Shown here piece after piece: positions 2,797 through 64,000 of a stretch of 64,000 nucleotides of DNA. The DNA comes from Taibaiella lutea (GTDB lineage Bacteria > Bacteroidota > Bacteroidia > Chitinophagales > Chitinophagaceae). Both the position numbers and the translations under genes were made by a program. The stretch covers positions 62,001 to 126,000 of the forward strand of contig NZ_VWSH01000004.1 in assembly GCF_008629695.1 (NCBI RefSeq). Direction: 5' to 3'. The stretch's first letter is position 1. Every line of letters starts with the position of its first letter. The notes beneath the pieces are model-generated. The model saw nothing but the letters and a program-made list of their open reading frames with translations. It was not told the origin of the DNA and did no database searches.

Positions 2797-3420
2797 TTAT
2801 AATCCTTTTACAGGACGGCTTACATAAATATTATCCCTTATGTAAAACCGCCAGGGTAATAAAGCATCTTCACCGGCATAATCAATACCGATACGCGGGC
2901 ATGCCACAATTTGTTTCTTATTTAAAGGATAGCTTACGTCTTCAATCCAGATAATGTCGCCATTAAGGTCCATTGCATTAATATCTCTGTCAACACCCAA
3001 TGCCTGTGATAATGCGCCCGGGCCTTTTGTAATATTGGATTTCAAAACGGTCATATTCCTTCTTTGCAGCATAATATCTATGCCCGTAGTCGGTTCAATG
3101 GCTCTTATTAAAACCGCATGCGGTGTATCTTTCGGGCCCGTAATTACATTCAGCAGTGAGTGAATGCCATAACACAAATAGACATAGGTTATGCCTCCAT
3201 CCTCAAACATGGTTTTGGTGCGGTTGGTAAATCTGCCATTATAAGCATGTGAGGCTTTATCGGTTATACCCATATAAGCTTCCGTTTCTACAATAATGCC
3301 CGCTGTAACATTACCATTTATATTAGTTGATATTTGTTTGCCAAGCAAGCTTTTTGCAATACTTATTACATCTTCACTTTGATAAAAGTGCAATGGCAAT
3401 TTTCGTTTTTCCTCATGCAT
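2797..3420 (-). CDS. 3-methyladenine DNA glycosylase (AAG/MPG family)
   Basis: 207 residues, the usual size of the bacterial AAG family. The monofunctional glycosylase excises alkylated purines such as 3-methyladenine and hypoxanthine, opening base-excision repair. Diagnostic segments are IIVETEAYMG (about 42-51, the Glu that activates water), DKASHAYNGRFTNRTKTMFE and the YVYLCYGIHSLLNVIT strand (about 79-94) whose Tyr intercalates into DNA. The TKGPGALSQALGV stretch is also typical. It is monocistronic, convergent with the azoreductase and divergent from the signalling operon. Confidence 0.93.
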   Translation of the reverse strand: MHEEKRKLPLHFYQSEDVISIAKSLLGKQISTNINGNVTAGIIVETEAYMGITDKASHAYNGRFTNRTKTMFEDGGITYVYLCYGIHSLLNVITGPKDTPHAVLIRAIEPTTGIDIMLQRRNMTVLKSNITKGPGALSQALGVDRDINAMDLNGDIIWIEDVSYPLNKKQIVACPRIGIDYAGEDALLPWRFYIRDNIYVSRPVKGL

Positions 3421-3574
3421 AACCGGAATATATTTATTTTGGGCGCCCTAAATTAAGAAGTTCCCTTTTGTTTATCTGAAGAAAAATTTTCTGAAAATAA
3501 CTGCAATAATGCAACAATTCGGGCTCATATTTGTATACATTTTAATTGGCTTTAAAACCTTGTGAATAAACTTG

Positions 3575-3604
3575 TTGGAATTCTTAAAATAAGCAATAAT
3601 TTTA
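3575..3604 (+). promoter_or_regulatory. Putative promoter of the 3.6-10.1 kb signalling operon
   Basis: TTG at 3575-3577, 19 bp, then TAATTTTA at 3597-3604: the spacing is exactly that of the Bacteroidota promoter, with A for the final G. The first start codon follows at 3632. Confidence 0.5.
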
Positions 3605-3631
3605 CGAAGCCAACTTACTGACCAAACATTT

Positions 3632-4759
3632 ATGATCTTAATTGTAGATGACAAAATTGAAAACATTACAGCCTTAAAAAAAGTTCTGGAATCGCACAAC
3701 TTTGTCGTAGATACCGCCCTTTCAGGACAAGAAGCCTTGAAGAAAATACTCAGACAATCTTATCAATTGATCATTTTGGATGTTCAGATGCCGGATATGG
3801 ATGGCTTTGAGGTTGCCGAATCAATTTCGGGATTTAGTAAAACCAATGATATTCCCATCATATTTCTCTCTGCCGTTAACATCAGTAAGGAATTTATTAC
3901 AAAAGGATATGCCTCCGGCGGGCACGATTATCTCGTGAAGCCATTTGATCCCGATATTCTTGTATTAAAAATAAGGACATTTATTAAGTTATATGAGCAA
4001 ACTTTGGAGCTGTCTAAAATGCAGCAGGTGCTTATTGACGAAATTGAACAACGTAAAAGAGCTGAACAGAAAAAGGACGAATTTTTGAGTATTGCAAGCC
4101 ATGAATTAAAAACGCCGCTTACATCCGTTAAAGGCTATATACAATTGGCTGAAATGTCTGTTCAGAGCAATGAAAAAGAAAATGCCCTCAATTTTATTAA
4201 CCGTTCCTCTAATCAGCTCAAAAAGCTGGATACATTAATTACCGAATTGCTTGATATTTCAAAAATGACAACAGGAAACCTGGAATATCATTTTGCGGAT
4301 TTTAATTTTGAGCCTTTTCTTGATAATGTAATAGATGTTATACTCCGTTCCAATCCCGGCCGGAATATTATCCGGAGCGGATATGCCGATTTTTTCATTA
4401 ACGGTGACGAATTCAGGCTGGAGCAAGTGCTGCTCAATTATCTTTCCAATGCCATTAAATACTCCACGGAACCGCATCCCATTTTAATTCATGTAGAAAC
4501 CACAGATTCCAATGAAGTTAAAGTGAGTGTAAGAGATAGCGGTATAGGTATCAGCAAAGCCGATCAATCCAATCTGTTCGGTAAGTTTTACAGGGCGGTA
4601 CAATCTTCCAGCAAATATCAGGGCTTTGGTATGGGGTTGTATATTTGTGCCGAAATTATTGAAAAACATGGCGGGACCTACGGTGTGGAAAGTGAGCCGG
4701 ATAAAGGTTCCACCTTTCATTTCACATTGCCTTTAACCAACAAAAACCATAATCATTAA
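3632..4759 (+). CDS. Response regulator-histidine kinase fusion (REC-HisKA-HATPase)
   Basis: 375 residues. An N-terminal receiver (1-120) has the acidic pair D6-D7, phospho-acceptor D50 in LIILDVQMPDMDG and conserved K103 in YLVKPFD. A short helical linker (120-148) leads to the DHp helix with H157 in ASHELKTP. The ATPase domain follows, with N-box LSNAIKYS, G1 box VRDSGIGIS and G2 box GFGMGLYI. There is no sensor or membrane segment, so the kinase probably takes its input through its own receiver. It is the first gene of a tight operon; the next gene starts 12 bp downstream. Confidence 0.92.
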   Translation: MILIVDDKIENITALKKVLESHNFVVDTALSGQEALKKILRQSYQLIILDVQMPDMDGFEVAESISGFSKTNDIPIIFLSAVNISKEFITKGYASGGHDYLVKPFDPDILVLKIRTFIKLYEQTLELSKMQQVLIDEIEQRKRAEQKKDEFLSIASHELKTPLTSVKGYIQLAEMSVQSNEKENALNFINRSSNQLKKLDTLITELLDISKMTTGNLEYHFADFNFEPFLDNVIDVILRSNPGRNIIRSGYADFFINGDEFRLEQVLLNYLSNAIKYSTEPHPILIHVETTDSNEVKVSVRDSGIGISKADQSNLFGKFYRAVQSSSKYQGFGMGLYICAEIIEKHGGTYGVESEPDKGSTFHFTLPLTNKNHNH

Positions 4760-4771
4760 GCCAAATATCTG

Positions 4772-7700
4772 ATGATCTCTCAATCGAACAATAACCTGAA
4801 AACGGGTTTCGGGCTTTCCATTTCCCTGCTGATTATAAGTTCCATCGTCTCCTTGTTCTGCATCCAGAGTTTATTGGATAGCTCACAATGGGTGCGCCAT
4901 ACCAACGAAGTGAAAAACACATTGGAAAATGTGTTGTCTTCTATGAAAGATGCGGAAACCGGACAACGTGGCTATTTGCTGACCGGTAATGATGAATTTT
5001 TGGATCCCTTTAAAGGTTCCTATGAAACCGCCAATATAAATATTCAGAGAGTAAGGAGCCTGACTGTTGACAATGCTATCCAGCAAAAATCTGCCGTCAA
5101 CCTTAAAAGCCTTGTCACTACTCAGATGTATAAGCTTCAATCAATAATTGACAAAAAGAAAAATGGAGATTCTGTGTCATTTAATGATCTTCTGGTGGGC
5201 AGGATTTATATGGATAGCGTGAGAAGGCAAGTTAAAATAATGAATGATGAAGAGAGTAAGCTTTTGGAAGTAAGAATTGCTTCACAACGTCGTTATGCCA
5301 CTTTTACTCCGGTAGTTATTTTCATTGCCGCATTATTGGCAATTATTATTTCTATTGTATTCTACAGGCGTGCCGTCAAAGATTTAAAAGCAAGAATCAA
5401 ATTACAGGCAAGCCTTGAAGCTAAAGATAAAGAAACGGTAGATCGTATTAACGCCATTCAAAATATTGCTTCTCAGATTTCAAGTGGTGATTATACCATT
5501 CGTCTGGATGACGAACAAAAGGATAATCTGGGCGACCTCTCCGTTTCTTTAAATAAAATGGCAGATTCCCTTTCTTATTCCTTCAATAAATTATCAGACA
5601 ATGAATGGCTGCAAAGAGGCGTAGCATTGCTGAATGATAAAATGGTAGGCGAAAAGGATTTGAATGTACTGACCCAGCAGATTGTTGAATTTACAGCAGA
5701 ATATACCGGTAGCCATGTCGGCGCTTTTTATTTGCATGAAAAAGGCGCATTGGTACTGCATGGCGGTTATGCTTTAATGGATTCCACCAAAACAGAAATA
5801 CCGTTGGGTGAGGGAATTGTAGGACAGGTGATGTCAAGCGGAAAAGAAATTATAATTCAGAATATAGATCCCGATTATGTTACAATTAGTTACGGCATCG
5901 GAAATATCAGGCCGAAAATGGTGGCGGCATTTCCGGTTTATTTTGAAACCGAGAAAATCGGCGTATTGGAATTGGCTTCCATGAATGCCCTTACAGAAAG
6001 GGAACAGATATTCTTGAAGTCCGTTGTTGAAAATATAGGCAATGCAATTCAGGCTGCTATTAATCACAAAAAACTTCAGGAATTACTGGAAGAAACACAG
6101 GCTCAATCAGAAGAACTGCAGGCACAGCACAGCGAGCTTGAAAATATGAATGCCGAACTGGAAGCTCATACCCAAAAGCTTCAGACATCTGAAGAAGAGC
6201 TGCGCGTACAGCAGGAAGAATTGCAGCAAAGCAATTTTGAGCTGGAAGAGCGGAACCGGATTATTAATGATCGTAACGAAGAAATTGTAAAGAAAGCGGC
6301 GGAACTGGAGCAAAGCACCAGATATAAATCGGAGTTTATGGCCAATATGAGCCATGAGCTCAGGACACCATTGAATTCTATCCTCTTGCTGTCGAGATAC
6401 CTTTATGAAAATTCGGAGAAAAACCTGAGCGAAGATCAGATGGAATCGGCTAAGGTAATTTTCAATTCAGGTAATGGGTTGTTGGAACTCATCAACGAGC
6501 TGTTGGATCTTTCGAAGATTGAAGCGGGCAAGATGGAATTGGATTATTCACAAATATCCGTTAGAGAAATTGTTTCCAATACCAAAAGCTTATTCCTGCC
6601 GCTTGCCAAAGAAAAAGGAATTGAGCTGAAATTTGCAGACGAAACGACTCAGGGTTTGCTGATGGAAACCGATAAGATGAAATTGGATCAGATTATTAAA
6701 AACCTTATTTCCAATGCCATTAAATTTACGGCTAAAGGCAGCGTTACTTTGAAGATCAATGAAATTGAAGGAAAGAACAATTTTATGGAATTTTCTGTAA
6801 TAGATACAGGTGTCGGTATTCCGAATGATAAGTTATCACTGGTTTTTGAGGCATTTACACAAGCAGATGGTTCTACTAAAAGAAAATACGGCGGTACAGG
6901 TCTGGGGCTTTCCATCAGCCGTCAGCTGGCAAGATTATTAGGTGGTGAAATTACGGTTACCAGTGAAGTAGGGCAAGGTAGTGCTTTTGTGCTGATTGTA
7001 CCTAAAGTACCCGTTTCATTGGAAGATATCAAAGAAGAGGAATTTATTTTACAGGCCAAAGCGCTTAAAGAGGCAGAAGAAGAACGTTTGCGTAAGTCAA
7101 AGTCAAGGAATGTTGTGGAAGTAATTCCGGAAGATGTAGATGATGACAGAAATGATATTCATGATGGTGATAAAATCATTTTGATTGTAGAGGATGACAC
7201 AGGATTTGCAAAAGCATTGATGCAATTTGCAAAAAAAGCAAGTTATAAATGTATTATAGCCGTCAGAGGTGATGACGCAGTTCGCCTTGCAAAGAAATAT
7301 ACGCCCAATGCAATTTTACTGGATATACAGCTGCCGGTTATGGATGGTTGGGAAGTAATGAATGAATTGAAATCCAATGCTGAAACAAGGCATATTCCTG
7401 TACATATTATGTCCTCAATGGAGGCTAAGCGGGAAAGCAGGTTGCAGGGTGCGGTTGACTTCATCAACAAGCCGATAGCCTTTGAGCAAATGCGTCAGAT
7501 GTTTGGAAAGATAGAGGCTGCATTGAATAAAAATCCGAAACGCGTTTTGATTGTTGAAGAAAATCCGAAACATGCTAAGGCGCTTTCTTATTTCCTGGAA
7601 AGTTATAATGTAACAGCAAGCATTGAGCATACCGTTAATGAAAGTGTACAGACCTTACAGAATAAAGATGTGGATTGCGTGATACTGGATATGGGGCTGC

Positions 7701-8350
7701 CCGATAAGACTTCTTATGAAACACTGGAAGTAATAAAAGCTACACCGGGCCTTGAAGACATTCCTATTATTGTTTTTACGGGTAAAAATTTATCACACCT
7801 GGAAGAAAGCCGCATCAGGCAATATGCCGATTCCATTGTGGTAAAGACCGCACATTCCTATCAACGGATTTTAGATGAAGTAGCATTATTCCTTCATCTG
7901 ATTGAACAGAATAAAGTGAAAATGAAGCATTCGGAACGTTTCGACCACATGAACGATATTCTTCAGGGCAAGACTATTTTGGTGGCAGATGATGACGTGC
8001 GTAATATTTTCTCATTAACAAAAGCGCTTGAAAAACATCAGGTAAAAGTAATTACAGCTACTGATGGTACAGAAGCATTGGACCAGCTGGAACGAAACTC
8101 GCATGTCGATATCGTGCTTATGGATATGATGATGCCTCAGATGGACGGATATGAAACCACAACCAAAATACGCAACAATCCAAAGTATAAAAACATTCCG
8201 GTTATTGCCGTAACAGCAAAAGCAATGCTCGGCGATCGCGAAAAATGCATAGCAGCGGGCGCGTCCGATTATATTTCCAAACCTGTAGATCAGGATCAAT
8301 TGGTTTCTTTATTGAGGGTTTGGCTTTACGATAAACAAGGCAATTCATAG
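4772..8350 (+). CDS. Large hybrid sensor kinase: CHASE3-HAMP-GAF-HisKA-HATPase-REC-REC-REC
   Basis: 1192 residues. A first membrane helix lies at about 13-33 and an extracytoplasmic CHASE3-type helical sensor (with DAETGQRGYLLTG) at about 38-175. A second membrane helix is near 177-197. A HAMP-like region (ISSGDYTIRL) and a GAF domain (about 290-425) follow, then a Gln/Glu-rich coiled coil. The DHp domain has the His in MSHELRTPLNS (about residue 527), and the ATPase has boxes SNAIKF and GTGLGLSIS. Three receivers follow, with acceptors in LLDIQLPVMDG, VILDMGLP and LMDMMMPQMDG. The middle receiver has degenerate loops (VEENP at the acidic pair, VVKTAHS without Pro). The multi-receiver tail suggests a branched phosphorelay with the REC proteins encoded beside it. 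Confidence 0.92.
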   Translation: MISQSNNNLKTGFGLSISLLIISSIVSLFCIQSLLDSSQWVRHTNEVKNTLENVLSSMKDAETGQRGYLLTGNDEFLDPFKGSYETANINIQRVRSLTVDNAIQQKSAVNLKSLVTTQMYKLQSIIDKKKNGDSVSFNDLLVGRIYMDSVRRQVKIMNDEESKLLEVRIASQRRYATFTPVVIFIAALLAIIISIVFYRRAVKDLKARIKLQASLEAKDKETVDRINAIQNIASQISSGDYTIRLDDEQKDNLGDLSVSLNKMADSLSYSFNKLSDNEWLQRGVALLNDKMVGEKDLNVLTQQIVEFTAEYTGSHVGAFYLHEKGALVLHGGYALMDSTKTEIPLGEGIVGQVMSSGKEIIIQNIDPDYVTISYGIGNIRPKMVAAFPVYFETEKIGVLELASMNALTEREQIFLKSVVENIGNAIQAAINHKKLQELLEETQAQSEELQAQHSELENMNAELEAHTQKLQTSEEELRVQQEELQQSNFELEERNRIINDRNEEIVKKAAELEQSTRYKSEFMANMSHELRTPLNSILLLSRYLYENSEKNLSEDQMESAKVIFNSGNGLLELINELLDLSKIEAGKMELDYSQISVREIVSNTKSLFLPLAKEKGIELKFADETTQGLLMETDKMKLDQIIKNLISNAIKFTAKGSVTLKINEIEGKNNFMEFSVIDTGVGIPNDKLSLVFEAFTQADGSTKRKYGGTGLGLSISRQLARLLGGEITVTSEVGQGSAFVLIVPKVPVSLEDIKEEEFILQAKALKEAEEERLRKSKSRNVVEVIPEDVDDDRNDIHDGDKIILIVEDDTGFAKALMQFAKKASYKCIIAVRGDDAVRLAKKYTPNAILLDIQLPVMDGWEVMNELKSNAETRHIPVHIMSSMEAKRESRLQGAVDFINKPIAFEQMRQMFGKIEAALNKNPKRVLIVEENPKHAKALSYFLESYNVTASIEHTVNESVQTLQNKDVDCVILDMGLPDKTSYETLEVIKATPGLEDIPIIVFTGKNLSHLEESRIRQYADSIVVKTAHSYQRILDEVALFLHLIEQNKVKMKHSERFDHMNDILQGKTILVADDDVRNIFSLTKALEKHQVKVITATDGTEALDQLERNSHVDIVLMDMMMPQMDGYETTTKIRNNPKYKNIPVIAVTAKAMLGDREKCIAAGASDYISKPVDQDQLVSLLRVWLYDKQGNS

Positions 8351-8356
8351 CGTAAA

Positions 8357-8734
8357 ATGACAACAGAGAAAAAGGTAATTCTTATAATTGATGACGATGC
8401 AAGAAATATATTTGCATTAAGTTTAGTATTGAGATCAAAAGGTTACAGCGTTGTTTCCGCTTCGGATGCTGAAACAGGCATTATGATTTTAAAAGAAAAC
8501 AATCTGGTAGGTATTGCGTTGTTAGATATGATGATGCCTGAAATGGACGGTTACCAGGCCTTGCAGGTTATAAGAAACACAGAAGGAATAAAAGATTTTC
8601 CCGTTATTGCAGTTACGGCGCAAGCCATGAAGGGTGATAAGGAAAGGTGCCTCGAAGCAGGTGCTACCGATTATATTTCAAAGCCAATCAACATGGACGA
8701 GTTGGAAGCCAAGTTGAAACAATTTTTAATCTGA
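8357..8734 (+). CDS. Single-domain response regulator
   Basis: 125 residues consisting only of a receiver: acidic pair in IIDDDARN, acceptor Asp in ALLDMMMPEMDG, Thr/Ala switch in AVTAQAMKG and Lys in YISKPIN. It closely resembles the third receiver of the preceding hybrid kinase, suggesting a duplicated receiver that shuttles phosphate between kinases. It starts 6 bp after the kinase stop and is followed 16 bp later by cheR. Confidence 0.92.
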   Translation: MTTEKKVILIIDDDARNIFALSLVLRSKGYSVVSASDAETGIMILKENNLVGIALLDMMMPEMDGYQALQVIRNTEGIKDFPVIAVTAQAMKGDKERCLEAGATDYISKPINMDELEAKLKQFLI

Positions 8735-8750
8735 GATGAAATAAATTTAG

Positions 8751-9560
8751 ATGATAACGGACGAAGAAATGGAAATGTTGCTTTATGACATTCTCGAAAT
8801 TTATGGCTATGATTTTAATGATTACGCAAAAGCATCTTTCAAGCGCAGGCTCAACAGGCTTATAACTTTGGATCGCTTTCCGAGTTTTGCGGAATTCAGG
8901 TTTCGCTTAAAAGATGACAAAGAATATTTCAATCGTTTCATTGAGCAGATAACGGTGAATGTCACCGAAATGTTCCGGGACCCTGATTTCTATCAGACTT
9001 TGCGTAAGGAAGTATTACCTATTCTTTCCACTTATCCTTTTATAAGAATCTGGCATGCAGGCTGCTCAACCGGCGAAGAAGTATTTAGTATGGCTATTAT
9101 ATTGAAAGAGGCCAATCTGCTTCATAAGTCCATATTGTATGCTACCGATATTAATGCTAAAGTAGTAACACAAGCTTCAACCGGTGTTTTCAATATGATG
9201 CATATGAAGCAATACACGGAGAATTATAATTTGTCAGGGGGGATTCATGATTTTTCGCAATATTATACTGCCGGTAATAACAAAGTAATTTTCGATCAGA
9301 GTTTTAAAAACCACATGGTGTTTTCCACACATAACCTTGTTGCTGAAAGCTCGTTCAATGAATTTCAACTTATTGTTTGCAGAAATGTTTTAATTTATTT
9401 CGAAAAAGATTTACAGGCAAAGGTTTTTAATTTGTTTGATGAAAGTCTTGAACGTCTTGGCTTTCTGGCTTTAGGTAATAAAGAATCTATCAGATTATCG
9501 CCTGCAAATGCTAAGTTTAAACAAGTTGGAACGGAGAAAATATGGAGAAAGATGATTTAA
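8751..9560 (+). CDS. cheR: CheR-type protein-glutamate methyltransferase
   Basis: 269 residues, the normal length for CheR. The N-terminal helical domain includes YDFNDYAKASFKRRLNRLI and ITVNVTEMFRDPDFYQ. The SAM-binding domain carries IWHAGCSTGEEVFSMA (about 99-114), the ATDINAKVVTQAS acid loop and CRNVLIYFE (about 212-220). CheR methylates glutamates on chemoreceptors, but no receptor, CheA or CheW gene is present here. The target may be a neighbouring kinase or a receptor elsewhere. It overlaps the cheB gene by 19 bp. Confidence 0.9.
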   Translation: MITDEEMEMLLYDILEIYGYDFNDYAKASFKRRLNRLITLDRFPSFAEFRFRLKDDKEYFNRFIEQITVNVTEMFRDPDFYQTLRKEVLPILSTYPFIRIWHAGCSTGEEVFSMAIILKEANLLHKSILYATDINAKVVTQASTGVFNMMHMKQYTENYNLSGGIHDFSQYYTAGNNKVIFDQSFKNHMVFSTHNLVAESSFNEFQLIVCRNVLIYFEKDLQAKVFNLFDESLERLGFLALGNKESIRLSPANAKFKQVGTEKIWRKMI

Positions 9561-10123
9561 AGAAAGCTACTAAATGTGTAGTAATCGGTGGTTCGGCCGG
9601 AAGCATCAAACCATTGTTGCAGATACTTTCCAAATTGAAAGCTTCATTGGATTTTCCTGTTATCGTTATTCTGCATCGCAAAAATGATCCCCGTTCCTCA
9701 CTGGAAACACTTTTGAATAATGGATGTGCATTGCCGGTTAAAGAAGGCGAAGACAAGGAAACACTGAAAAACGGCATAGTGTATGTTGCACCGAGCGACT
9801 ACCATTTGTTAATTGAAAATGACCATTCTTTATCTCTCGATGCTTCTGAAAAAGTACTTTGGTCAAGGCCTTCGATTGATGTTACCTTTCTGTCTGCTGC
9901 CGAAGTTTACAAGAAAAACTTACTGGGAATATTATTGTCCGGAGCAAATAACGATGGAAGTGTGGGCCTGGAAAGGATAAAAAATATGGGTGGAAAAACA
10001 GTGGTTCAAAGCCCCGATAATGCTGAAATGCCTGCAATGCCTCTTTCTGCAATCAACATATTCAAACCCGATTATGTGCTCAAGGATTCTGAAATAGCTG
10101 CTGTTATCAATCGTTTCAAATAA
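9542..10123 (+). CDS. cheB: CheB-type methylesterase catalytic domain without receiver
   Basis: 193 residues corresponding to the catalytic half of CheB. The catalytic Ser lies in VIGGSAGSIKPL (residues 14-25), the His in ILHRKNDPRS and the Asp in LLSGANNDGSVGL, together with VYVAPSDYHLL. The N-terminal receiver of standard CheB is absent, so regulation by phosphorylation would have to come from separate receivers such as the one encoded just upstream. It is translationally coupled to cheR and ends the operon before a strong hairpin. Confidence 0.9.
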   Translation: MEKDDLKKATKCVVIGGSAGSIKPLLQILSKLKASLDFPVIVILHRKNDPRSSLETLLNNGCALPVKEGEDKETLKNGIVYVAPSDYHLLIENDHSLSLDASEKVLWSRPSIDVTFLSAAEVYKKNLLGILLSGANNDGSVGLERIKNMGGKTVVQSPDNAEMPAMPLSAINIFKPDYVLKDSEIAAVINRFK

Positions 10124-11099: not shown

Positions 11100-11153
11100 T
11101 ACTATATCAGGATTTAACCAAATCCAAATCAAACAAAATTTGTGCCGAGAATA

Positions 11154-12542
11154 ATGGGAAGAAGTATATTAATAGTTGATGATGAATTGTCTATTGGTCA
11201 GATTCTAAGTCAATTTCTGAGCAGGCATGGTTATAATACATCCGTAGCTACTTCAGGAAAACAGGCTTTAAAAGCGGTAAAGGATACCCGCTTCGATTTA
11301 ATTTTATGCGATTATAACCTGGGAGATATAAGCGGAATGGAGGTGATGCAGAAAGCATTGGAACTGCAACCCGGCACCATTGTTATCTTCATAAGCGGCA
11401 TGGACGATATTTCCACCGTAGTAAATCTTATTAAGGAAGGTGCTTACCATTTCCTTACCAAGCCTTTATATCCCGATTTGGTTTTAAAAACCATTGAAAA
11501 TGCTTTTGTAGATGTCAAGCCCAGTGTTCCCTCCGAAAATACCGAAACTTATGTTCCTCAGAACAGTACAAGGTATATAAAAGGTAAAAGCCCGGCGGCA
11601 CAACGTTTATTTCAGCACATTAATTTAGTAGCTCCCACCGATTACAATGTTATCATTCACGGTGAAACAGGTACCGGTAAAGAAGCCCTGGCCCATTTTC
11701 TTCATGTAGACAGCAAGCGTGCCAACGAACCTTTTATTGCAATTGACTGTGGCAGCCTTTCAAAAGAGCTTGCAGCAAGTGAACTGTTCGGACATAAAAA
11801 AGGGGCCTTTACAGGAGCATTGAACGATAAAAAAGGCGCCTTTGAATTGGCCGACGGCGGTACGCTCTTCTTGGATGAAATCGGCAACCTTCCTTATGAT
11901 ATCCAGAATTATCTGCTGCGCGCCATACAGGAAAAAACCGTCAGGAGAGTAGGGGATGTGCTGGAAACAAAAGTTGACGTAAGGGTTATTGCCGCTTCCA
12001 ACGAGAATTTACAAGACCTTGTCGCCGATAAAAAATTCAGGGAAGATTTATACCATCGACTGAATGAATTTACCTTGGAAGTTCCCACATTAAAAGAACG
12101 TAAAGAAGATATAGCCTTATTTGTTGAAGAATTTTTGCGTCAGGCAGAATTGCATCTCGGCAGAAAAAACAAAGGCCTTACAAAAGAAGTATGGAAGTTG
12201 TTTGAAAATTATTCCTGGCCCGGTAATATCCGTGAGCTGCAAAATGTTATTAAACGCACATGCCTGCTTACACCGGCCGATGAGTACATTGATTCTAAAA
12301 GCCTTCCGCTTGAAATGACCATGCGCACCTATGATAATGCACAGGAAACCAATAACGGAACGGAAGCAAAACCGGCTTCAACCAATGGCCTGAAGGATGC
12401 GGCATTGGAAGCCGAGCGCATAAAAATCTATAAAGTTTTGGAGAAAGTAAATTATAACAAAACTAAAGCAGCCGAAATTTTGTCTATAGACAGGAAAACG
12501 CTTTACAATAAGCTAAAAACCATTAACGAAGAATTAAAATAA
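11154..12542 (+). CDS. Sigma-54-dependent response regulator, NtrC family
   Basis: 462 residues. A receiver has acidic pair D9-D10 and phospho-acceptor D53 in ILCDYNLGDISG. The AAA+ domain has Walker A GETGTGKE, the sigma-54 contact loop GAFTGA and Walker B GGTLFLDEIGN, plus the sensor region KFREDLYHRLN. A C-terminal Fis-type HTH includes YNKTKAAEILSIDRKTLYNK. Phosphorylation should drive oligomerisation and open sigma-54 promoter complexes. An in-frame GTG at 11142 would add four residues; ATG 11154 is preferred because the receiver starts at once. The -24/-12 motifs at 10952-10967 and 14325-14340 on either side are its likely targets. Confidence 0.93.
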   Translation: MGRSILIVDDELSIGQILSQFLSRHGYNTSVATSGKQALKAVKDTRFDLILCDYNLGDISGMEVMQKALELQPGTIVIFISGMDDISTVVNLIKEGAYHFLTKPLYPDLVLKTIENAFVDVKPSVPSENTETYVPQNSTRYIKGKSPAAQRLFQHINLVAPTDYNVIIHGETGTGKEALAHFLHVDSKRANEPFIAIDCGSLSKELAASELFGHKKGAFTGALNDKKGAFELADGGTLFLDEIGNLPYDIQNYLLRAIQEKTVRRVGDVLETKVDVRVIAASNENLQDLVADKKFREDLYHRLNEFTLEVPTLKERKEDIALFVEEFLRQAELHLGRKNKGLTKEVWKLFENYSWPGNIRELQNVIKRTCLLTPADEYIDSKSLPLEMTMRTYDNAQETNNGTEAKPASTNGLKDAALEAERIKIYKVLEKVNYNKTKAAEILSIDRKTLYNKLKTINEELK

Positions 12543-12642: not shown

Positions 12643-13038
12643 ATGAAAAAATGTGTTCTGATTTATGAAGATGATCTTGATATCATGCAATTATGCAAGA
12701 TTATCTTAACTGCAAGCGATTATCAGGTCGAAACCAGAAATACCTGTGAAAATATTATTGCTGATGTTAAAGAAGTGAACCCCAATATAATTCTGATGGA
12801 CCTTTGGATTCCTGAAATCGGCGGCGAGCAGGCTATTATGCTTGTCAAACAGGAAGAAGCCTTTAAAGATATACCTATTGTTATTTTTTCTGCGAATGAA
12901 GAATTAGATACCATATGCAAAAGAATAAATGCATCCGGATATCTGAAAAAGCCTTTTGATATTATGGACCTGAAAAATATTATACAGCTTCACATAAGTG
13001 AGAAAAAACATTCGGAACAATCCACCCAATCGGTATGA
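12643..13038 (+). CDS. Single-domain response regulator
   Basis: 131 residues: a receiver alone, with acidic residues in IYEDDLDIMQL, acceptor Asp in ILMDLWIPEIGG, the Ser switch in VIFSANEE and Lys in YLKKPFD. The C-terminus is a short Gln/Ser tail. Its stop overlaps the start of the GAF-DHp gene (ATGA-type), so the two are translationally coupled. It follows the NtrC-type gene by 100 bp. It resembles the receiver at 61064 (both have a Trp-Ile-Pro motif after the acceptor), suggesting paralogues. Confidence 0.9.
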   Translation: MKKCVLIYEDDLDIMQLCKIILTASDYQVETRNTCENIIADVKEVNPNIILMDLWIPEIGGEQAIMLVKQEEAFKDIPIVIFSANEELDTICKRINASGYLKKPFDIMDLKNIIQLHISEKKHSEQSTQSV

Positions 13039-13739
13039 ATGAAATGAACCAGTCGGCCTTAAACGACAAGGAAATAATACCCGAAAACCCTTCCGATTTA
13101 ATTCAATGCATTGCTGAGGATGATTATGATTGGTTGACCAGGCAACTTGCCGCGCTTTTTGGCTTTTCCGATACGTTTATGACATTATGGGACGGGCAAC
13201 AATCCTCGCTTAAATCTTTTTCCGGCAAGCGGGAACAGGTTTCCGAAGATCTGCTTTATTCCTTATCCGCATTGGTTCATAGTGCTAAGGATTTTTATCT
13301 TATTGAAAATCTTTCTTCGCATCCTCAGACTGAAAAAATAAATATCCCTTCCCGTTTGAATTTCTTTGTCGGTGTTCCCTTCAAAACAAAAGCAGGTGCC
13401 GTAATCGGTGCTATCGGACTGATGAATGATATTGTGCCGGCCTCTTATAACGGGCATCAGCTGGAGCTTTTAAGAATACTGGTCATGTTGCTGACAGACA
13501 ATATAGAACTGCGTTACAATCATAAATCCCAGACTGATAAGGAAAAGCTGATTAACCGGAAGTTTACCCACGATTTAAGAAACCCCTTGACAGTCATTTC
13601 CCTGAATGCCGAAATAATCAATATGGAAAACAATTTGTCTGCCGGTGTCAGAGATATGTGCAACCAGGTAAAACAGGCCACAGGCAGCATGAACCAATTG
13701 ATTGATACCTTTGCGGCCATTCAAAAAAATGCCCAATAG
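13035..13739 (+). CDS. GAF-DHp protein lacking the kinase ATPase domain
   Basis: 234 residues. Residues about 20-160 form a GAF-like domain (NFFVGVPFKTKAGAVIGAIG is typical of the central strands). Residues about 168-230 form a histidine-kinase DHp hairpin with the H-box FTHDLRNPLTVI and candidate phospho-His179. The protein stops 55 residues after that His, and the following DNA is a hairpin and repeats, not an ATPase domain. It could be a phosphotransfer protein like Spo0B, or be phosphorylated in trans by another kinase. It is coupled by a 4-bp overlap to the receiver gene before it. Confidence 0.85.
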   Translation: MNEMNQSALNDKEIIPENPSDLIQCIAEDDYDWLTRQLAALFGFSDTFMTLWDGQQSSLKSFSGKREQVSEDLLYSLSALVHSAKDFYLIENLSSHPQTEKINIPSRLNFFVGVPFKTKAGAVIGAIGLMNDIVPASYNGHQLELLRILVMLLTDNIELRYNHKSQTDKEKLINRKFTHDLRNPLTVISLNAEIINMENNLSAGVRDMCNQVKQATGSMNQLIDTFAAIQKNAQ

Positions 13740-13763
13740 CTATTTTTGTAAATAACTATTGGG
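13732..13763 (+). terminator. Hairpin overlapping the stop of the GAF-DHp gene
   Basis: CCCAATAG-C-TATTT (13732-13745) pairs with AAATA-A-CTATTGGG (13750-13763), one mismatch, tetraloop TTGT. The stop codon is inside the left arm. It is a likely terminator of the 11.1-13.7 kb genes. Confidence 0.5.
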
Positions 13764-13774
13764 TAATTGTATAT

Positions 13775-13904
13775 AGAGACGCAACTGAAGTTGCTGATTT
13801 TTAAACGTCGTTGTTAGTGAATTTCACTAACAACATTCGCCTTGATAAGGAAAGGATACGGGGGTAAATGTATATATGCAGATGCAACTTTCCGTTGCAG
13901 GATA
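13775..13904. repeat. Cluster of short interspersed palindromes
   Basis: Three dyads lie in 130 bp. GCAACT-GA-AGTTGC is at 13781-13794. A 12-bp stem GTTGTTAGTGAA with its complement and a one-base gap is at 13810-13834. GCAAC-N5-GTTGC is at 13884-13898. The first and third share the flank TATA-(G/A)-(C)AGA-(C/T)GCAAC. The middle one belongs to the same family as copies at 19108 and 58633. They look like REP-type intergenic elements. Confidence 0.6.
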
Positions 13905-14255
13905 TTAATCTTGTTCGTTTTCTATCTCTTTCTGGATTGTATAACTATCGCAATACCATTCAAAAAACTCTTTGGGAGTTGGCGCTATATCCTTTTTGAA
14001 ATTTTCTTCTCCGTATTCCACCCAAAACCATTTAACAATAGTCGTTGCTTCACTATTGTGATAAGGTTGTATAATTTTGGCGCAATAATTCTGAAGAATA
14101 GAATAAGCGGTACTCCATTTAAGGCATTTTTTCAATCTGCTAAGCTGAAGCATTACGGCATCGGCGCCTTTTTTGCCCTTTACAGGTTCTTTTGCAAGTC
14201 TTTTCCAGGACATTTCAAATTTTTTGTCTATCGAAGTAAGTACGGCCTCTTTCAT
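13905..14255 (-). CDS. Hypothetical protein, 116 aa, behind a sigma-54-like promoter
   Basis: Not recognised. It is a charged, aromatic-rich protein (MSWKRLAKEPVKGKKGADAV, then IVKWFWVEYGEENFKKD and EFFEWYCDSYTIQKEIEN) without signal peptide or membrane helix, probably cytosolic. A long frame on the opposite strand covers the same DNA but is hydrophobic and unusual in composition, so this strand is preferred. A -24/-12-like motif at 14325-14340 reads towards this gene and shares its flank with the promoter at 10952-10967, tying it to the adjacent NtrC-type regulator. Confidence 0.6.
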   Translation of the reverse strand: MKEAVLTSIDKKFEMSWKRLAKEPVKGKKGADAVMLQLSRLKKCLKWSTAYSILQNYCAKIIQPYHNSEATTIVKWFWVEYGEENFKKDIAPTPKEFFEWYCDSYTIQKEIENEQD

Positions 14256-14701
14256 ATGTCAATTGGTTTGAAGATTGGTTAAATTAGGTTCAGCTGTTAT
14301 TTCCCTGCTGATATAATAACTATATCCAAATTTCGTGCCAAACTTTTGAAACCTTTCTCTGCTTATATGAAAAATACCTTGAAACCCTTATCTGGTAATG
14401 GTTTCATGTTTTATATTTTTTTTCAGCATTAAACCTGTCATATCATTTTAATTTCCGGAGAAAAAAATAATGGGGAATTCTATACACATGATGTGGCAAA
14501 ATTTTGACGCTCTCCGCTGGCTTTAACATTATTTTTGATAACAATTTTCTTTTCAAATGCAATGTGTTGCCATTAGCTATAGTTTTGGCGACTATAGCAT
14601 GTTGGGATAATATGTTTACAAGCCTTGTAAGGAACATTTATTTGTCTTAAACAAACAAAATAAAAGCGCAGGCATTATTATGAGAAATATAGATCTTCAT
14701 A
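14256..14701. other. Intergenic region
   Basis: It holds the sigma-54-like motif (14325-14340) and an imperfect dyad GAAACC (14381-14386) / GGTTTC (14400-14405). I see no other convincing gene; a 64-codon minus-strand frame at 14443-14637 has no supporting signal. Confidence 0.4.
14325..14340 (-). promoter_or_regulatory. Sigma-54-like promoter upstream of the 116-aa gene
   Basis: On the minus strand: TGGCACG (14340-14334), AAAT, TTGGA (14329-14325). The -24 half is perfect; the -12 half has G instead of C. The flank matches the site at 10961 for 17 bases with one change (CGTGCCAAACTTTTRAA on the plus strand). The start codon at 14255 would be about 58 bases downstream of the start of transcription. 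Confidence 0.6.
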
Positions 14702-15409
14702 ATGCAGCGCACCTTACTTTACCTCCTTATAATAACCATTACCGGTTGCGGCATAGCTAAGCCGGGTGCCAAATACCAGTTTTCGGATGGTTACTATAGT
14801 TCGCGTGGAATAGAAAATGTCCGTAAAGTATATATCTACAATCAGGACAGTACTATAAAAGTGTATCCCGTTACAAATGCCGGGAAACAAAGAAATGTGG
14901 ACACGACGAGACATCATGTACTTATGTATGGACAGGTTGAACCTCATAATATTAAAAAAGAACCTGTTTTCACAAAGGGCAGCTTTGATATAGACTTTCT
15001 TACCATTCCTATTAAATACCGCTTTCCCTCAGATGGATTTGTAAGGCAATTGAATGCAAATCTGAACGGAGGTCTTTATCTGGGCTATAGAAAAGATTTC
15101 TATATTCTGCGTTATAACGTCAGTCCGATAGGCGTTTCTACAAGATCAACCACACATCTCGGCTTTTCTGCAGGCGGCTATATAGGATTCGGAAATACAT
15201 TTATTTCGCAATATGTTACCCGGGGCTCAGTGCAATCGGAATATGACGGGTTAGTATTCAACCGCGGATTTGCCGCAATTGTTGCTTTAAACCGTTTTAC
15301 AGCAGGCCTCGCCATAGGTTGGGACCGGCTTTTAGACAGGAACAATGAATATTGGATATACAATAACAAATCCTGGGTAGGTATCGTCCTCGGATTAAAC
15401 CTCAACTGA
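14702..15409 (+). CDS. Predicted outer-membrane beta-barrel lipoprotein, 235 aa
   Basis: The N-terminus MQRTLLYLLIITITGCG is a lipoprotein signal with lipobox ITGC, giving a lipidated Cys16. The rest alternates short hydrophobic and polar strands rich in Tyr, Gly and Phe (NLNGGLYLGYRKDFYIL, LGFSAGGYIGFGNTFIS, AGLAIGWDRLLD). It ends in VGIVLGLNLN, a pattern of an 8- to 10-stranded outer-membrane barrel. I do not recognise a named family. It is monocistronic. Confidence 0.7.
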   Translation: MQRTLLYLLIITITGCGIAKPGAKYQFSDGYYSSRGIENVRKVYIYNQDSTIKVYPVTNAGKQRNVDTTRHHVLMYGQVEPHNIKKEPVFTKGSFDIDFLTIPIKYRFPSDGFVRQLNANLNGGLYLGYRKDFYILRYNVSPIGVSTRSTTHLGFSAGGYIGFGNTFISQYVTRGSVQSEYDGLVFNRGFAAIVALNRFTAGLAIGWDRLLDRNNEYWIYNNKSWVGIVLGLNLN

Positions 15410-15604
15410 CAAATATTGCCCGATGTAGCAGCATACTTTTTATAAATAAATGACAAATTCCTTTCCGATGCAACCAAACATTCAATTATCTGTTGGATGA
15501 TGGACTAACGACTCTTAATTACATTGCGAACATTAGTATAGATAGCGCAACAATTTTTAGTTGTCCGAATCAGATAAATTTCATTCATTTTAAACCAAAG
15601 TATT

Positions 15605-15961
15605 ATGCTTAAACTTCAGCAACAAAAAAGAACATCCTCAACTATACCATTAACGGTATTGACAGGCGCTATTGTAGGCTCAGCCGTGGCTTTGTTATTT
15701 GCACCAAGAAAAGGACGCGATTTCAGGAATGATATAAAAGGCAAAGCCCTGGAACTTAAATCCAGGTTCAATAACACTGCTATCAAAAACAGTAGTAGTG
15801 ATGAATCAGCATCTCATGTGGATATTTATAATAAAGCGACAATGCATACCGCGAAAACCAACAATATAAAAGAAGAACCCCGCACGTCGAAAGCCGCAGC
15901 GATGGTTAATCATCTGAAACATAGCAAGCATCCCGGCAGCGATCAACCTGAGATACTGTAA
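15605..15961 (+). CDS. YtxH-domain protein
   Basis: 118 residues. The N-terminal part has a hydrophobic Gly-rich helix with the YtxH signature (VGSAVALLFAPRKGRDFR, about residues 22-39), followed by a basic, low-complexity tail (ELKSRFNNTAIKNSSSDE). YtxH proteins are small membrane-anchored general-stress proteins of unknown biochemical role. The neighbouring MscS channel, catalase and DUF2383 genes suit a stress or osmoprotection region. Confidence 0.8.
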   Translation: MLKLQQQKRTSSTIPLTVLTGAIVGSAVALLFAPRKGRDFRNDIKGKALELKSRFNNTAIKNSSSDESASHVDIYNKATMHTAKTNNIKEEPRTSKAAAMVNHLKHSKHPGSDQPEIL

Positions 15962-16046
15962 ATAGATAATGTCTTCATTTATTACGACCACTTCATAACA
16001 TAATTGCTTTCAGCAATCATTTCATTCATTCACATGTTACCGAAAC

Positions 16047-61063: not shown

Positions 61064-61435
61064 ATGAATACGAGTGAAAGAAAAATAATAATTTTTGATG
61101 ACGATGAAGACATTGTTTCCGTATGTCAATATATCTTAATGGAAAAAGGTTGGCAAGTATATCCTTTCGCTGATTGTAATGACCCGATTGCAAAAGTTGA
61201 AAGTATAATGCCTGACGTAATTTTAATGGATAACTGGATTCCCGATGAAGGTGGAATAATCACCACTCAAAAGATAAAAAGTTCCGAACACCTGATGCAT
61301 ATTCCTGTTATTTTCTTTTCTGCAAGTGGAAATATCAAAAATTTGGCAGAAGAAGCCGGAGCCGATGCTTATTTAAGCAAGCCATTCGACCTCGATGCAC
61401 TTGAAAAAGTCGTCAGGTATCGCCTTGAAAGTTAG
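61064..61435 (+). CDS. Single-domain response regulator
   Basis: 123 residues, a receiver alone: FDDDEDIVS acidic cluster, acceptor Asp in ILMDNWIPDEGG, Ser switch in IFFSASGN and Lys in YLSKPFD. It lies 34 bp after the heme oxygenase gene and is convergent with a large PAS kinase. The WIP motif after the acceptor also occurs in the receiver at 12643. Confidence 0.9.
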   Translation: MNTSERKIIIFDDDEDIVSVCQYILMEKGWQVYPFADCNDPIAKVESIMPDVILMDNWIPDEGGIITTQKIKSSEHLMHIPVIFFSASGNIKNLAEEAGADAYLSKPFDLDALEKVVRYRLES

Positions 61436-61466: not shown

Positions 61467-64000
61467 TTATTTAGAGCCATTAACAGGTATGGAAAACCAA
61501 AATGTCGATCCTTCCCCAAGGACGCTTTCAACTCCTATCTCTCCGTGGTGGCGTTTTACTATTTCAGCGGAAATATATAATCCCAATCCCAAACCGGCGA
61601 AATGTGTAGAGGACTCCTGCACACGATAAAAACGGTCAAATAAGAAATCTTTTTTGTTTTTCGGAATTCCAATCCCGAAATCCCTTACCTCAACACGAAA
61701 CGAATTTTCGCTAAAGGAACATGTTATCTCAACTTTACCTGCATCAGGAGAGTATTTTATTGCATTGGTAAGAAAGTTATTTATAACTTGTTCTAAACGC
61801 GCTCTGTCTGCCTTTATAATGATGTTTTTCTCATTGCAATTTAGTATCAGTTCATGTTTATGATTTTGCGCCCTTACCTCGTCAATACTTTCCTGAATCA
61901 TACCCCTGGCATCAAATTCAGAATAATTAAGGAGCATTTTCCCTTCCTGGATTTTGGTGACATCTAATAAATCGTTCAATAAAACAGTCAATTTATCGGT
62001 TTGCTTTACAGCCTTTAAAATAAAAGTAACCAACGGATCTTTCAAGTCCATTTTTTGGGTTAACCGTTCCAGTATCTGCAATGATCCCTTCAAGCTTGTG
62101 ACAGGTGTTTTAAGCTCATGGCTTGCAATGCTCATAAACTCGTCCTTCTTATACATCAGTTCTTCTGCAGATTTGCGCGCACGTATAAGATCTGTAACTT
62201 CAAAGCCAAACAATGCCAGGCCATCAATGTTACCCGTATCATCATATACAGGTGCAATGATAATATCAAACCAGTGATCAACCTGCGTCGATGACTTGCC
62301 TTCCTTCCTGGTAACATGATAGGTTTTGCCTACGTAAGTTACGCCGGTTTCAAAAACATCATTTTCTGTCTTCAGGAATTCCGCATTGTCAAATAAAGTC
62401 GCAACTTCAGCAGAAGGCTTCCCAATCAGATTATCCTGTCCGTCAAACTTTTGATATGCTTTGTTTACAAACTCATATGCTAATTCCGGACCGCGTCGGA
62501 TCGTTATTAAAGCAGGCGCATTGTCAAAAATGCTATAGAACTCATCTTTCTGTTTTTTTATAGTTTGTAATAACTCAATAAGCCGGTTTTCTGATTCTTT
62601 TTGACGCGTAATATCTACGATTGATCCAACTAAACGATAAGGTGTTCTGAACTCATCCTCCAAAATACTTCCGCGATCCAGAATATAGGCATAATTATTG
62701 TCTGCTTTTAAAAAACGGTATTCTGCAGACCATTGCTTATTATTATTGTTTATAGCATGAAATACTCCTTCCTGAACTCTTTTGCGGTCATCGGGATGAA
62801 TCTTGCTAAACCAGAATTCGACGCTGTTAGTTTCTTCGTTGCATTCATAACCAAACATAATGGTGAAATTATCGCTCCTCCACATTGTGTTGGTAACCAG
62901 ATTCCAATCCCATATCGTATCATTGGTAGCTTTTGAGACCAGATTAAAACGTTCTTCGCTTTCAGTCAATTTTTGCGTGCGTTCAAAAACCCGGTCTTCT
63001 AATTGGTTATTGAGCGTCTTGAGCCCCTCACGGGCTGTGATCAGTTCATGGTAATTTTTCCGCAATTTCTGCTCTGATGATTTACGTTCGGTAACATTTG
63101 TAAGATTAATCACAAATCCATCATCCATTTTTACGGCTGTTACCTGAAACCACAACTGATCCGCAGTCTGCAATTCTGTTTGCAGTGGTTTTCCGCTTTC
63201 TACCACCTTTATAAATTGCTCCATGCTTATGTTGCCGATTAAGTCAGCAAATGACTTAATAGAGGGATGTAAATTTAAATCATCCCCTGTCTTTTTTACA
63301 AGATCTAAAGCAGTACTGTTATAAGCTGTGCAAATAAAATCTATAATCTTAAAAGCATTATTCCTTAATACTTTGAATGCAAGTATCACCGATGAACTTG
63401 CATTGAAAACACCACTGATAATACTGTTCAGTTCTGTTATCAACGAAATATCGATGAACGTAATGACTACGCCATCCAGCTGTTTGTCCTTTCTGACAAA
63501 TGGCATGATGCGCATTAAATTATTAGAACCGTTTTTCAGCTTCACTTCTTTTTCCAACACCTGTTCATTTGACAAAACAGCGTGTATGTCATTGATCAGA
63601 CTATCGTATTCAATGTTACTGGAGATGTGATTGATAGGGCGGCCGACGTCATTTGGTATTAAATTAACCATCTTTACGGCAGCGGGATTAAACTTTCTGA
63701 TTCTCAGGCTTGAGTCAATGAAAATTTGTCCGATGTCAGTACTTTTAAAATAATTATCGAGATCATCGTTAAGTTCCGTCAGTTCATTAATCTTTACCTG
63801 GTGCTCGGTGTTTAAAGTGTGCAATTCTTCATTTAATGACTGAAGTTCTTCGTTACCTGATTGTAACTCTTCATTGGCCGAAAGCAATTCCTCGTTACTT
63901 GATTGCAGCTCCTCATTAGTTGTTTCCATTTCCTCTATAGCCATCTGTAAATTGGTCCGTGTCTCGTTTAGCTCGGCTTCCAATTCCATCAGATACTCAT
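61467..64000 (-). CDS. Large PAS-histidine kinase, 3' part (probable CheB-CheR-PAS-HK fusion)
   Basis: The frame is open to the right edge (codons EYL precede the first ATG at 63989), so the gene continues upstream. The visible ~844 residues start with the coiled coil that follows the CheR domain in CheB-CheR kinases (LNETRTNLQMAIEEMETTNE, then EELQSSNEELLSANEELQSG). Then come PAS domains at about 50-160, 175-290, 335-465 (NDTIWDWNLVTNTMWRSDNF) and 475-610. The DHp has His in SIASHELKTPVTS and the ATPase has SNAIKYSPDAG and GLGLGLYISAE. Upstream methyltransferase and esterase domains are expected outside the window. The kinase end faces a lone receiver gene. Confidence 0.85.
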   Translation of the reverse strand, partial: EYLMELEAELNETRTNLQMAIEEMETTNEELQSSNEELLSANEELQSGNEELQSLNEELHTLNTEHQVKINELTELNDDLDNYFKSTDIGQIFIDSSLRIRKFNPAAVKMVNLIPNDVGRPINHISSNIEYDSLINDIHAVLSNEQVLEKEVKLKNGSNNLMRIMPFVRKDKQLDGVVITFIDISLITELNSIISGVFNASSSVILAFKVLRNNAFKIIDFICTAYNSTALDLVKKTGDDLNLHPSIKSFADLIGNISMEQFIKVVESGKPLQTELQTADQLWFQVTAVKMDDGFVINLTNVTERKSSEQKLRKNYHELITAREGLKTLNNQLEDRVFERTQKLTESEERFNLVSKATNDTIWDWNLVTNTMWRSDNFTIMFGYECNEETNSVEFWFSKIHPDDRKRVQEGVFHAINNNNKQWSAEYRFLKADNNYAYILDRGSILEDEFRTPYRLVGSIVDITRQKESENRLIELLQTIKKQKDEFYSIFDNAPALITIRRGPELAYEFVNKAYQKFDGQDNLIGKPSAEVATLFDNAEFLKTENDVFETGVTYVGKTYHVTRKEGKSSTQVDHWFDIIIAPVYDDTGNIDGLALFGFEVTDLIRARKSAEELMYKKDEFMSIASHELKTPVTSLKGSLQILERLTQKMDLKDPLVTFILKAVKQTDKLTVLLNDLLDVTKIQEGKMLLNYSEFDARGMIQESIDEVRAQNHKHELILNCNEKNIIIKADRARLEQVINNFLTNAIKYSPDAGKVEITCSFSENSFRVEVRDFGIGIPKNKKDFLFDRFYRVQESSTHFAGLGLGLYISAEIVKRHHGEIGVESVLGEGSTFWFSIPVNGSK

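Follow-up and report, generated by a model that had tools for sequence, protein, structure and literature searches.

A GAF–DHp protein without an ATPase domain, linked to a lone receiver, in Taibaiella lutea

Gene P0001 of Taibaiella lutea (13035..13739, plus strand) encodes a 234 aa protein composed of a GAF domain and a DHp (HisKA) domain, with no ATPase (CA) domain. Positions are those of the window, the whole 64,000-nucleotide stretch of DNA analysed. The truncated form is common to three genomes of two genera and is always located directly behind a receiver of the P0002 type. The shortened form persists next to the same partner in two genomes from a second genus, so P0001 is probably a working part of a relay and not a broken kinase. 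The explanation favoured here, with a chance close to even, is that P0001 is a working dimeric GAF–DHp protein serving in phosphotransfer and/or as a phosphatase, with the lone receiver P0002 and probably the adjoining NtrC-type regulator as its partners. It is based on the intact reading frame, the absence of CA, syntenic orthologues of the same form, the linkage to the receiver and the missing NtrC kinase.

Domain composition and integrity of P0001

The reading frame of P0001 starts with ATG, is intact and lies well inside a 741-kb contig (the genome has 4.27 Mb in five contigs). The DHp part, a two-helix domain at about residues 165–233 (13527..13733, plus strand), was recognised by Pfam as HisKA (E 1.6e-8; 34.9 bits against a cut-off of 26.9; residues 178–226), in agreement with the structural model. 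The presumed phospho-acceptor, His179 (codon 13569..13571, plus strand), is located within HDLRNP, in the context FTHDLRNP, and 55 residues remain before the stop codon. In the phosphatase motif of HisKA proteins, H-E/D-x-x-T/N as given in the accessible text of PMC3510030, the place of T/N is taken by Asn183 (codon 13581..13583, plus strand). No CA (HATPase_c) HMM matched the protein, so it does not qualify as a canonical histidine kinase; the four-helix Hpt domain is likewise absent from its Pfam matches at E ≤ 1. The initial annotation, made from the sequence alone, had described a GAF–DHp protein with an intact H-box and no ATPase domain, ending 55 residues past the histidine of HDLRNP; both the sequence and the Pfam results agree with it.

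A further in-frame stop codon lies within a few codons of the P0001 stop. When the region 13740–16000 was compared in six frames with the domains of the window's own kinases, nothing credible as a CA remnant appeared among the matches listed, which included those of the CA-bearing query DHp_CA. A frameshift or readthrough was therefore rejected, and the earlier view that P0001 is not a frameshift product stands, none being visible. Two other origins were discarded: truncation by a mobile element, as the region 3′ of the gene is not repeated at length elsewhere in the genome, and recent truncation of a paralogue, the genome containing no close DHp.

The hairpin that the initial annotation placed after the gene end is real (13732..13763; −16.2 kcal/mol, z −4.09), but it spans the stop codon and, according to a consensus scan, is terminator-like for the minus strand. 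A terminator-like stem-loop with a T run was found by the scan at 13781..13794 (plus strand); the scan gave three sites, compared with 3.1 in shuffles, i.e., no excess. Downstream of P0001, at window positions 13810–13834, there is a perfect 12-nt inverted repeat, GTTGTTAGTGAA/TTCACTAACAAC (z −4.64), a weak and incomplete copy of which lies in another part of the genome.

The GAF domain, at about residues 24–168 (13104..13538, plus strand), scored below the Pfam cut-off (GAF_2, 15.3 bits against 28.6) and was assigned by structural comparison. An AF2 model built from 16 aligned proteins has a pLDDT of 73.9; in this model the GAF domain is followed by a long helix (140–174), helices 182–196 and 203–233, and the end of the protein. 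A Foldseek search with the model yielded 316 PDB chains at E ≤ 0.001, the best 50 of the 316 being mostly GAF-containing, and VIA-align gave Z up to 15.2 across residues 17–168. The predicted fold supports a GAF assignment for residues ~24–168, a support that is not independent proof, as the aligned proteins contain GAF themselves. The model is poor at residues 170–179, and its break at 175–181 is probably an artefact, because the input alignment had a misplaced gap just before the histidine. No DHp fold match was present among the listed structure matches, which is uninformative in either direction. A single-sequence model (pLDDT 37.5) was discarded.

In the genome as a whole, PF00512 (HisKA) was found at 33 places and PF02518 (HATPase) at 56 places. 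When matched by position and frame, 32 of the 33 HisKA places have an HATPase in the same frame, P0001 being the sole exception. Of the HATPase frames, seven have fewer than 300 aa. One of them lies in an RsbR-S-T-like cluster and presumably encodes an RsbT-like protein; the other six, by a reading of their sequences, appear to be kinases of the HisKA_3 or LytS type. It is very improbable that P0001 is half of a split kinase, in which a separate ATPase protein would phosphorylate His179 in trans: no bare CA partner was found in the operon or in the HATPase frames read, which are the seven short ones beside 17 longer ones that lack HisKA. The idea has a basis in the accessible part of PMC3591291, where EnvZ can be split in vitro and where, of 42417 HisKA proteins in SMART, 1556 are without HATPase, 711 of the latter containing HE/DxxN/T and being proposed as possible split kinases.

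The 32 complete HisKA kinases, together with the ability of DHp domains to dimerise, also leave room for P0001 as a dominant-negative or adaptor DHp, which would enter mixed dimers with a complete kinase and be phosphorylated by that kinase or inhibit it. DHp dimers are usually specific, which counts against such a role. The genome also contains no close full-length paralogue, the best matches of the P0001 DHp in its own genome having i-E values of only 0.0037 and 0.0058. With RetS–GacS as a precedent (PMC12189002, in the text available), an adaptor role is conceivable and quite improbable.

Neighbouring genes and syntenic orthologues

The lone receiver P0002 (12643..13038, plus strand; 131 aa) belongs to Response_reg according to Pfam (E 1.9e-17); its phospho-acceptor is Asp53, and the conserved residues D10, D11, D53, S83 and K103 are all kept. 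Its frame overlaps that of P0001 by 4 bp (ATGA). The adjoining gene (11142..12542, plus strand; start at 11142 with GTG or at 11154 with ATG) encodes an NtrC-type regulator comprising receiver, AAA and DNA-binding parts, with relatives 50–64% identical. The 4-bp coupling to a lone receiver and the NtrC-type neighbour had both been pointed out from the sequence and were confirmed. The regulator is put forward as the likely target of P0001; this is a guess, because the orthologue loci have a 1324–1331 aa CheB–CheR–HK between NtrC and the receiver–DHp pair.

Other signalling genes are present in the window. The region 3632–10123 encodes a receiver-kinase, a hybrid kinase with three receivers, a lone receiver, CheR and CheB; this cluster is conserved in two congeners (L046 and L047), with no NtrC–receiver–DHp genes behind it. 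Its genes, with kinases at 3632–4759 and 4772–8350, are possible candidate phosphodonors. A second lone receiver (61064–61435), 33% identical to P0002, is convergent with a large PAS kinase (61467–63989), and in congener G002 a receiver of this type is found beside a large kinase.

The orthologues of P0001 were reached through the closest relatives of the window's NtrC, which are those of G020 (64% identical) and G210 (63%), from genus g18 of the same family. At these loci (L279 and L280) the NtrC gene is followed by a CheB–CheR–HK of 1324 or 1331 aa, a lone receiver and a DHp-only protein. The DHp-only proteins, identified by synteny and Pfam, have 229 aa with His177 (L279 1945–2634) and 232 aa with His180 (L280 15935–16633); in Pfam, both match HisKA (E 1.2e-7 and 1.1e-7) and no second domain. 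Both contain the motif HDLRTPLTS and stop 52 residues past the histidine. The initial annotation had regarded an ATPase domain at the corresponding point of orthologues as fatal to its reading; CA is absent from both proteins found, which share the form of P0001 (234 aa) and differ little from it in length. The neighbouring receivers are 51% identical to P0002; the corresponding figure is 33–34% for three further lone receivers from the genus of the window. The likeness to P0001 lies mainly in the DHp domain (18 of 54 residues identical, E 2e-7 in a single comparison), and a comparison of profiles with hhalign aligned the N-terminal domain of the orthologues only with the end of GAF (95%).

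Between G020 and G210, the DHp-only protein is 33% identical (51% in the DHp part, 25% in the N-terminal part), while identity is 87% for NtrC, 85% for CheB–CheR–HK and 92% for the receiver. The dN of the DHp-only gene is 0.71 against 0.05–0.09 for its neighbours, i.e., about 8–15 times higher. Its rough dN/dS is 0.30–0.39 (0.30 for the DHp part), untrustworthy values as dS is saturated or near it; for the neighbour genes dS is saturated and dN/dS was not obtainable. The high rate may reflect fast adaptation or weak constraint. Spo0B, according to the excerpted text of PMC6136694, is poorly conserved even within a genus.

The difference in dN, taken from two genomes of one genus, is among the arguments for P0001 being a decaying remnant, a GAF histidine kinase that lost CA and is under weak selection; the nearest homologues of P0001 are full GAF kinases, and its branch in the tree is very long (3.36). 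Against this stand three genomes of two genera that agree in truncation, frame, His motif and neighbouring receiver, the rough dN/dS of 0.30 in the DHp part (dS being near saturation) and the lack of a CA remnant among the matches listed for 13740–16000. Decay is considered improbable. The favoured explanation of a working phosphotransfer and/or phosphatase protein has points against it as well: there are three members in all, the two from outside the genus resemble P0001 over the DHp alone, and the dN of 0.71 fits weak constraint.

Each of the three congeners has its NtrC relative (57, 57 and 50% identical) arranged tail to tail with a complete DHp–CA kinase. No orthologue of this kinase was found in the window genome, where the G003 kinase matches nothing better than a different kinase at 28% identity. 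The G003 kinase is nearest to ZraS and AtoS in NCBIfam, far under their cut-offs. Among 29 NtrC relatives besides the window's own, examined over 1.5 kb on each side, a CA-bearing ORF accompanies 20 and a lone receiver 10, by the test used. The receivers of congeners G002 and G003 have no adjoining DHp-only gene.

Relatives and other CA-less forms

Direct protein searches with P0001 found homologues only, 19–35% identical and nearly all in kinase-length frames; no orthologue was obtained by this route in congeners or the family. Matches occur in at least 10 of 59 relatives, at least 71 of 394 family genomes (E ≤ 1e-3) and at least 26 of 395 class genomes (E ≤ 1e-5), each count including the window genome's own match; these are lower bounds because neither orthologue, similar to P0001 over only ~54 residues, was picked up. 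The 10 records obtained from a plasmid search all cover less than 80% of the query. When both GAF and DHp are considered, the best sequence relatives are full GAF kinases that belong to different families of the class (L268, i-E 1.9e-13). CA is present in all 34 GAF-kinase rows, which comprise the nearest full-length homologues, so the CA-less state of P0001 looks derived. In the tree, P0001 groups with three full GAF kinases (99/97).

A second set of GAF–DHp proteins without CA was found in the family. A search of the 394 family genomes with a 251 aa GAF–DHp protein of G321 listed 22 places at E ≤ 3.2e-57; 20 of them, in 19 genomes, have frames of 238–275 aa, and the other two have 360–370 aa. 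The proteins of this orphan family (233–257 aa) end at the DHp domain and contain the motif QSH[ED][FI]R[GQAR]P (QSHEFRGP or QSHDIRQP); their sites include L131–L150 and L224–L241, e.g., L056 3372–4127 (minus strand) and L238 5001–5732 (plus strand), and Flavipsychrobacter stenotrophus RB1R16 is among the named carriers. CA is absent from 23 of 23 rows, four of which are fused to a C-terminal PAS-like part, and the histidine is retained in 18 of 19 aligned members. In a simple comparison, 16 of 18 neighbourhoods contained no receiver or kinase. The orphan family thus resembles P0001 in having GAF and DHp and no CA, but differs from it in the QSH[ED] motif (FTHDLRNP in P0001), the absence of T/N and the usual lack of a receiver or kinase neighbour. 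It forms a separate clade (99/99), though the AU test does not reject a tree that unites it with P0001 in one clade (p 0.078). CA loss has probably, though not provably, occurred at least twice.

Several other reduced forms were observed. At L165 7899–8672 (plus strand; L133 2255–3028) there is a tandem second copy of the orphan GAF–DHp gene, with Tyr in place of the phospho-acceptor His (QSYEFRQP). L145, L151, L152, L154 and L153 encode GAF–DHp followed by a PAS-like domain, or GAF–PAS–DHp, with no CA by reading; the CA test covered the four loci other than L153. Proteins of about 222 aa with GAF, a short helical tail and no His motif are encoded directly behind PAS histidine kinases (L053 3833–4501, L054 3648–4316 and L057 3267–4058); they perhaps represent a further stage of DHp loss. 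In L051 (plus strand), a GAF–DHp ORF (3175–3942) is separated by a 60-bp gap from a CA ORF (4003–4380), this pair being either a split kinase or an assembly frameshift.

Possible mechanism and comparison with known systems

In the favoured explanation, P0001 would have lost its CA domain or never possessed one, and would be incapable of autophosphorylation. Another kinase would charge the lone receiver P0002, and His179 would take the phosphoryl group from P0002~P; P0001 may then pass the phosphate to its NtrC-type neighbour and/or drain it, the GAF domain setting the rate of exchange. We infer that P0001 dimerises, that phosphate moves in this direction, that NtrC takes part and that GAF gates the exchange. 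A more specific version is tentative and rather unlikely: a Bacteroidota relay of kinase, lone receiver, GAF–DHp protein and NtrC, in which the signal-gated step would fall to a bare DHp, equipped with a sensor of its own and lacking any remnant of CA, the whole set having replaced the NtrC kinase of the congeners.

P0001 could alternatively be a dedicated phosphatase, which would only dephosphorylate the receiver and/or NtrC, with no relay. This is a serious alternative to phosphotransfer, because HD-x-x-N in P0001 is an intact HisKA phosphatase signature. According to the available part of PMC3510030, HisKA proteins cannot act as phosphatases without the T/N, which HDLRN and HDLRT both hold, and in NtrB or EnvZ the DHp domain is by itself sufficient for that activity. 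T/N is present in P0001 and both orthologues, in contrast with 7 of 34 GAF kinases and none of 23 orphan rows. His179 and Asp180 are, however, also kept in all three proteins, weak evidence from three sequences, and the Asp/Glu of the motif is needed for kinase activity only (PMC3510030, same part). T/N also occurs at 26 of the 30 HisKA places read in the genome, P0001 included, and may therefore be inherited. A pure phosphatase is a minority possibility, if a substantial one; the present sequence data would suit relay and phosphatase alike.

HisKA proteins without HATPase, with their published count (PMC3591291, available text), and phosphotransferases derived from degenerate kinases are already known. 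P0001 falls in the former class, having a HisKA match, no HATPase match and the motif. This class was proposed as possible split kinases, whereas P0001 is coupled to a receiver and has no CA partner in the frames examined. The DHp fragments of NtrB and EnvZ, described in the accessible text of PMC3510030, share H-D/E-x-x-T/N with P0001, but they are laboratory fragments and P0001 is a natural gene. CA-less or split HisKA proteins have been counted in databases (PMC3591291) and are mostly unexplained. In the case of P0001, the receiver partner is conserved, there is a likely output regulator, and the congeners have a full kinase at the same NtrC gene; in this context, the role of a CA-less DHp, as a relay, a drain or both, can be asked directly. 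No paper was found on this gene set in Bacteroidota or on a bare GAF–DHp protein that accompanies a conserved receiver at the site of an NtrC gene, which does not prove that there is none. If the favoured explanation is true, a two-component system has been rewired by dropping a kinase domain.

Spo0B and ChpT retain a CA-like fold, and Spo0B has no sensor domain. Together with PhyT, they are described as degenerated kinases in the available text of PMC5898713. The initial annotation had suggested a Spo0B-like protein; P0001 has the DHp domain and histidine of that class, but it ends 55 aa past the histidine and has no degenerate CA domain, so membership was not upheld. By analogy, it is plausible that P0001 works like Spo0B or PhyT, because the receiver, DHp and NtrC genes are linked. 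The Spo0F–Spo0B–Spo0A system is similar in combining a lone receiver, a His phosphotransfer protein and a DNA-binding regulator, and Spo0B is likewise poorly conserved within a genus and found by neighbourhood rather than by sequence (PMC6136694, as excerpted). It differs in that P0001 consists of GAF and DHp with no CA, and in that the output of the P0001 set is of the NtrC type. PhyT of Sphingomonas, which is related to kinases but whose ATPase domain has degenerated, moves phosphate from a lone receiver to PhyR and so provides a precedent for the order kinase, lone receiver, degenerate-kinase phosphotransferase, regulator (PMC5898713, accessible part). Within the same text, the SdrG–PhyT–PhyR system resembles P0001 in its kinase-derived protein with no working ATPase, its sensor part, its lone-receiver partner and its place at the locus of the target regulator; PhyT, unlike P0001, is membrane-bound, is of the HWE/HisKA_2 type with HRxxN, keeps the degenerate ATPase domain and has its receiver encoded elsewhere.
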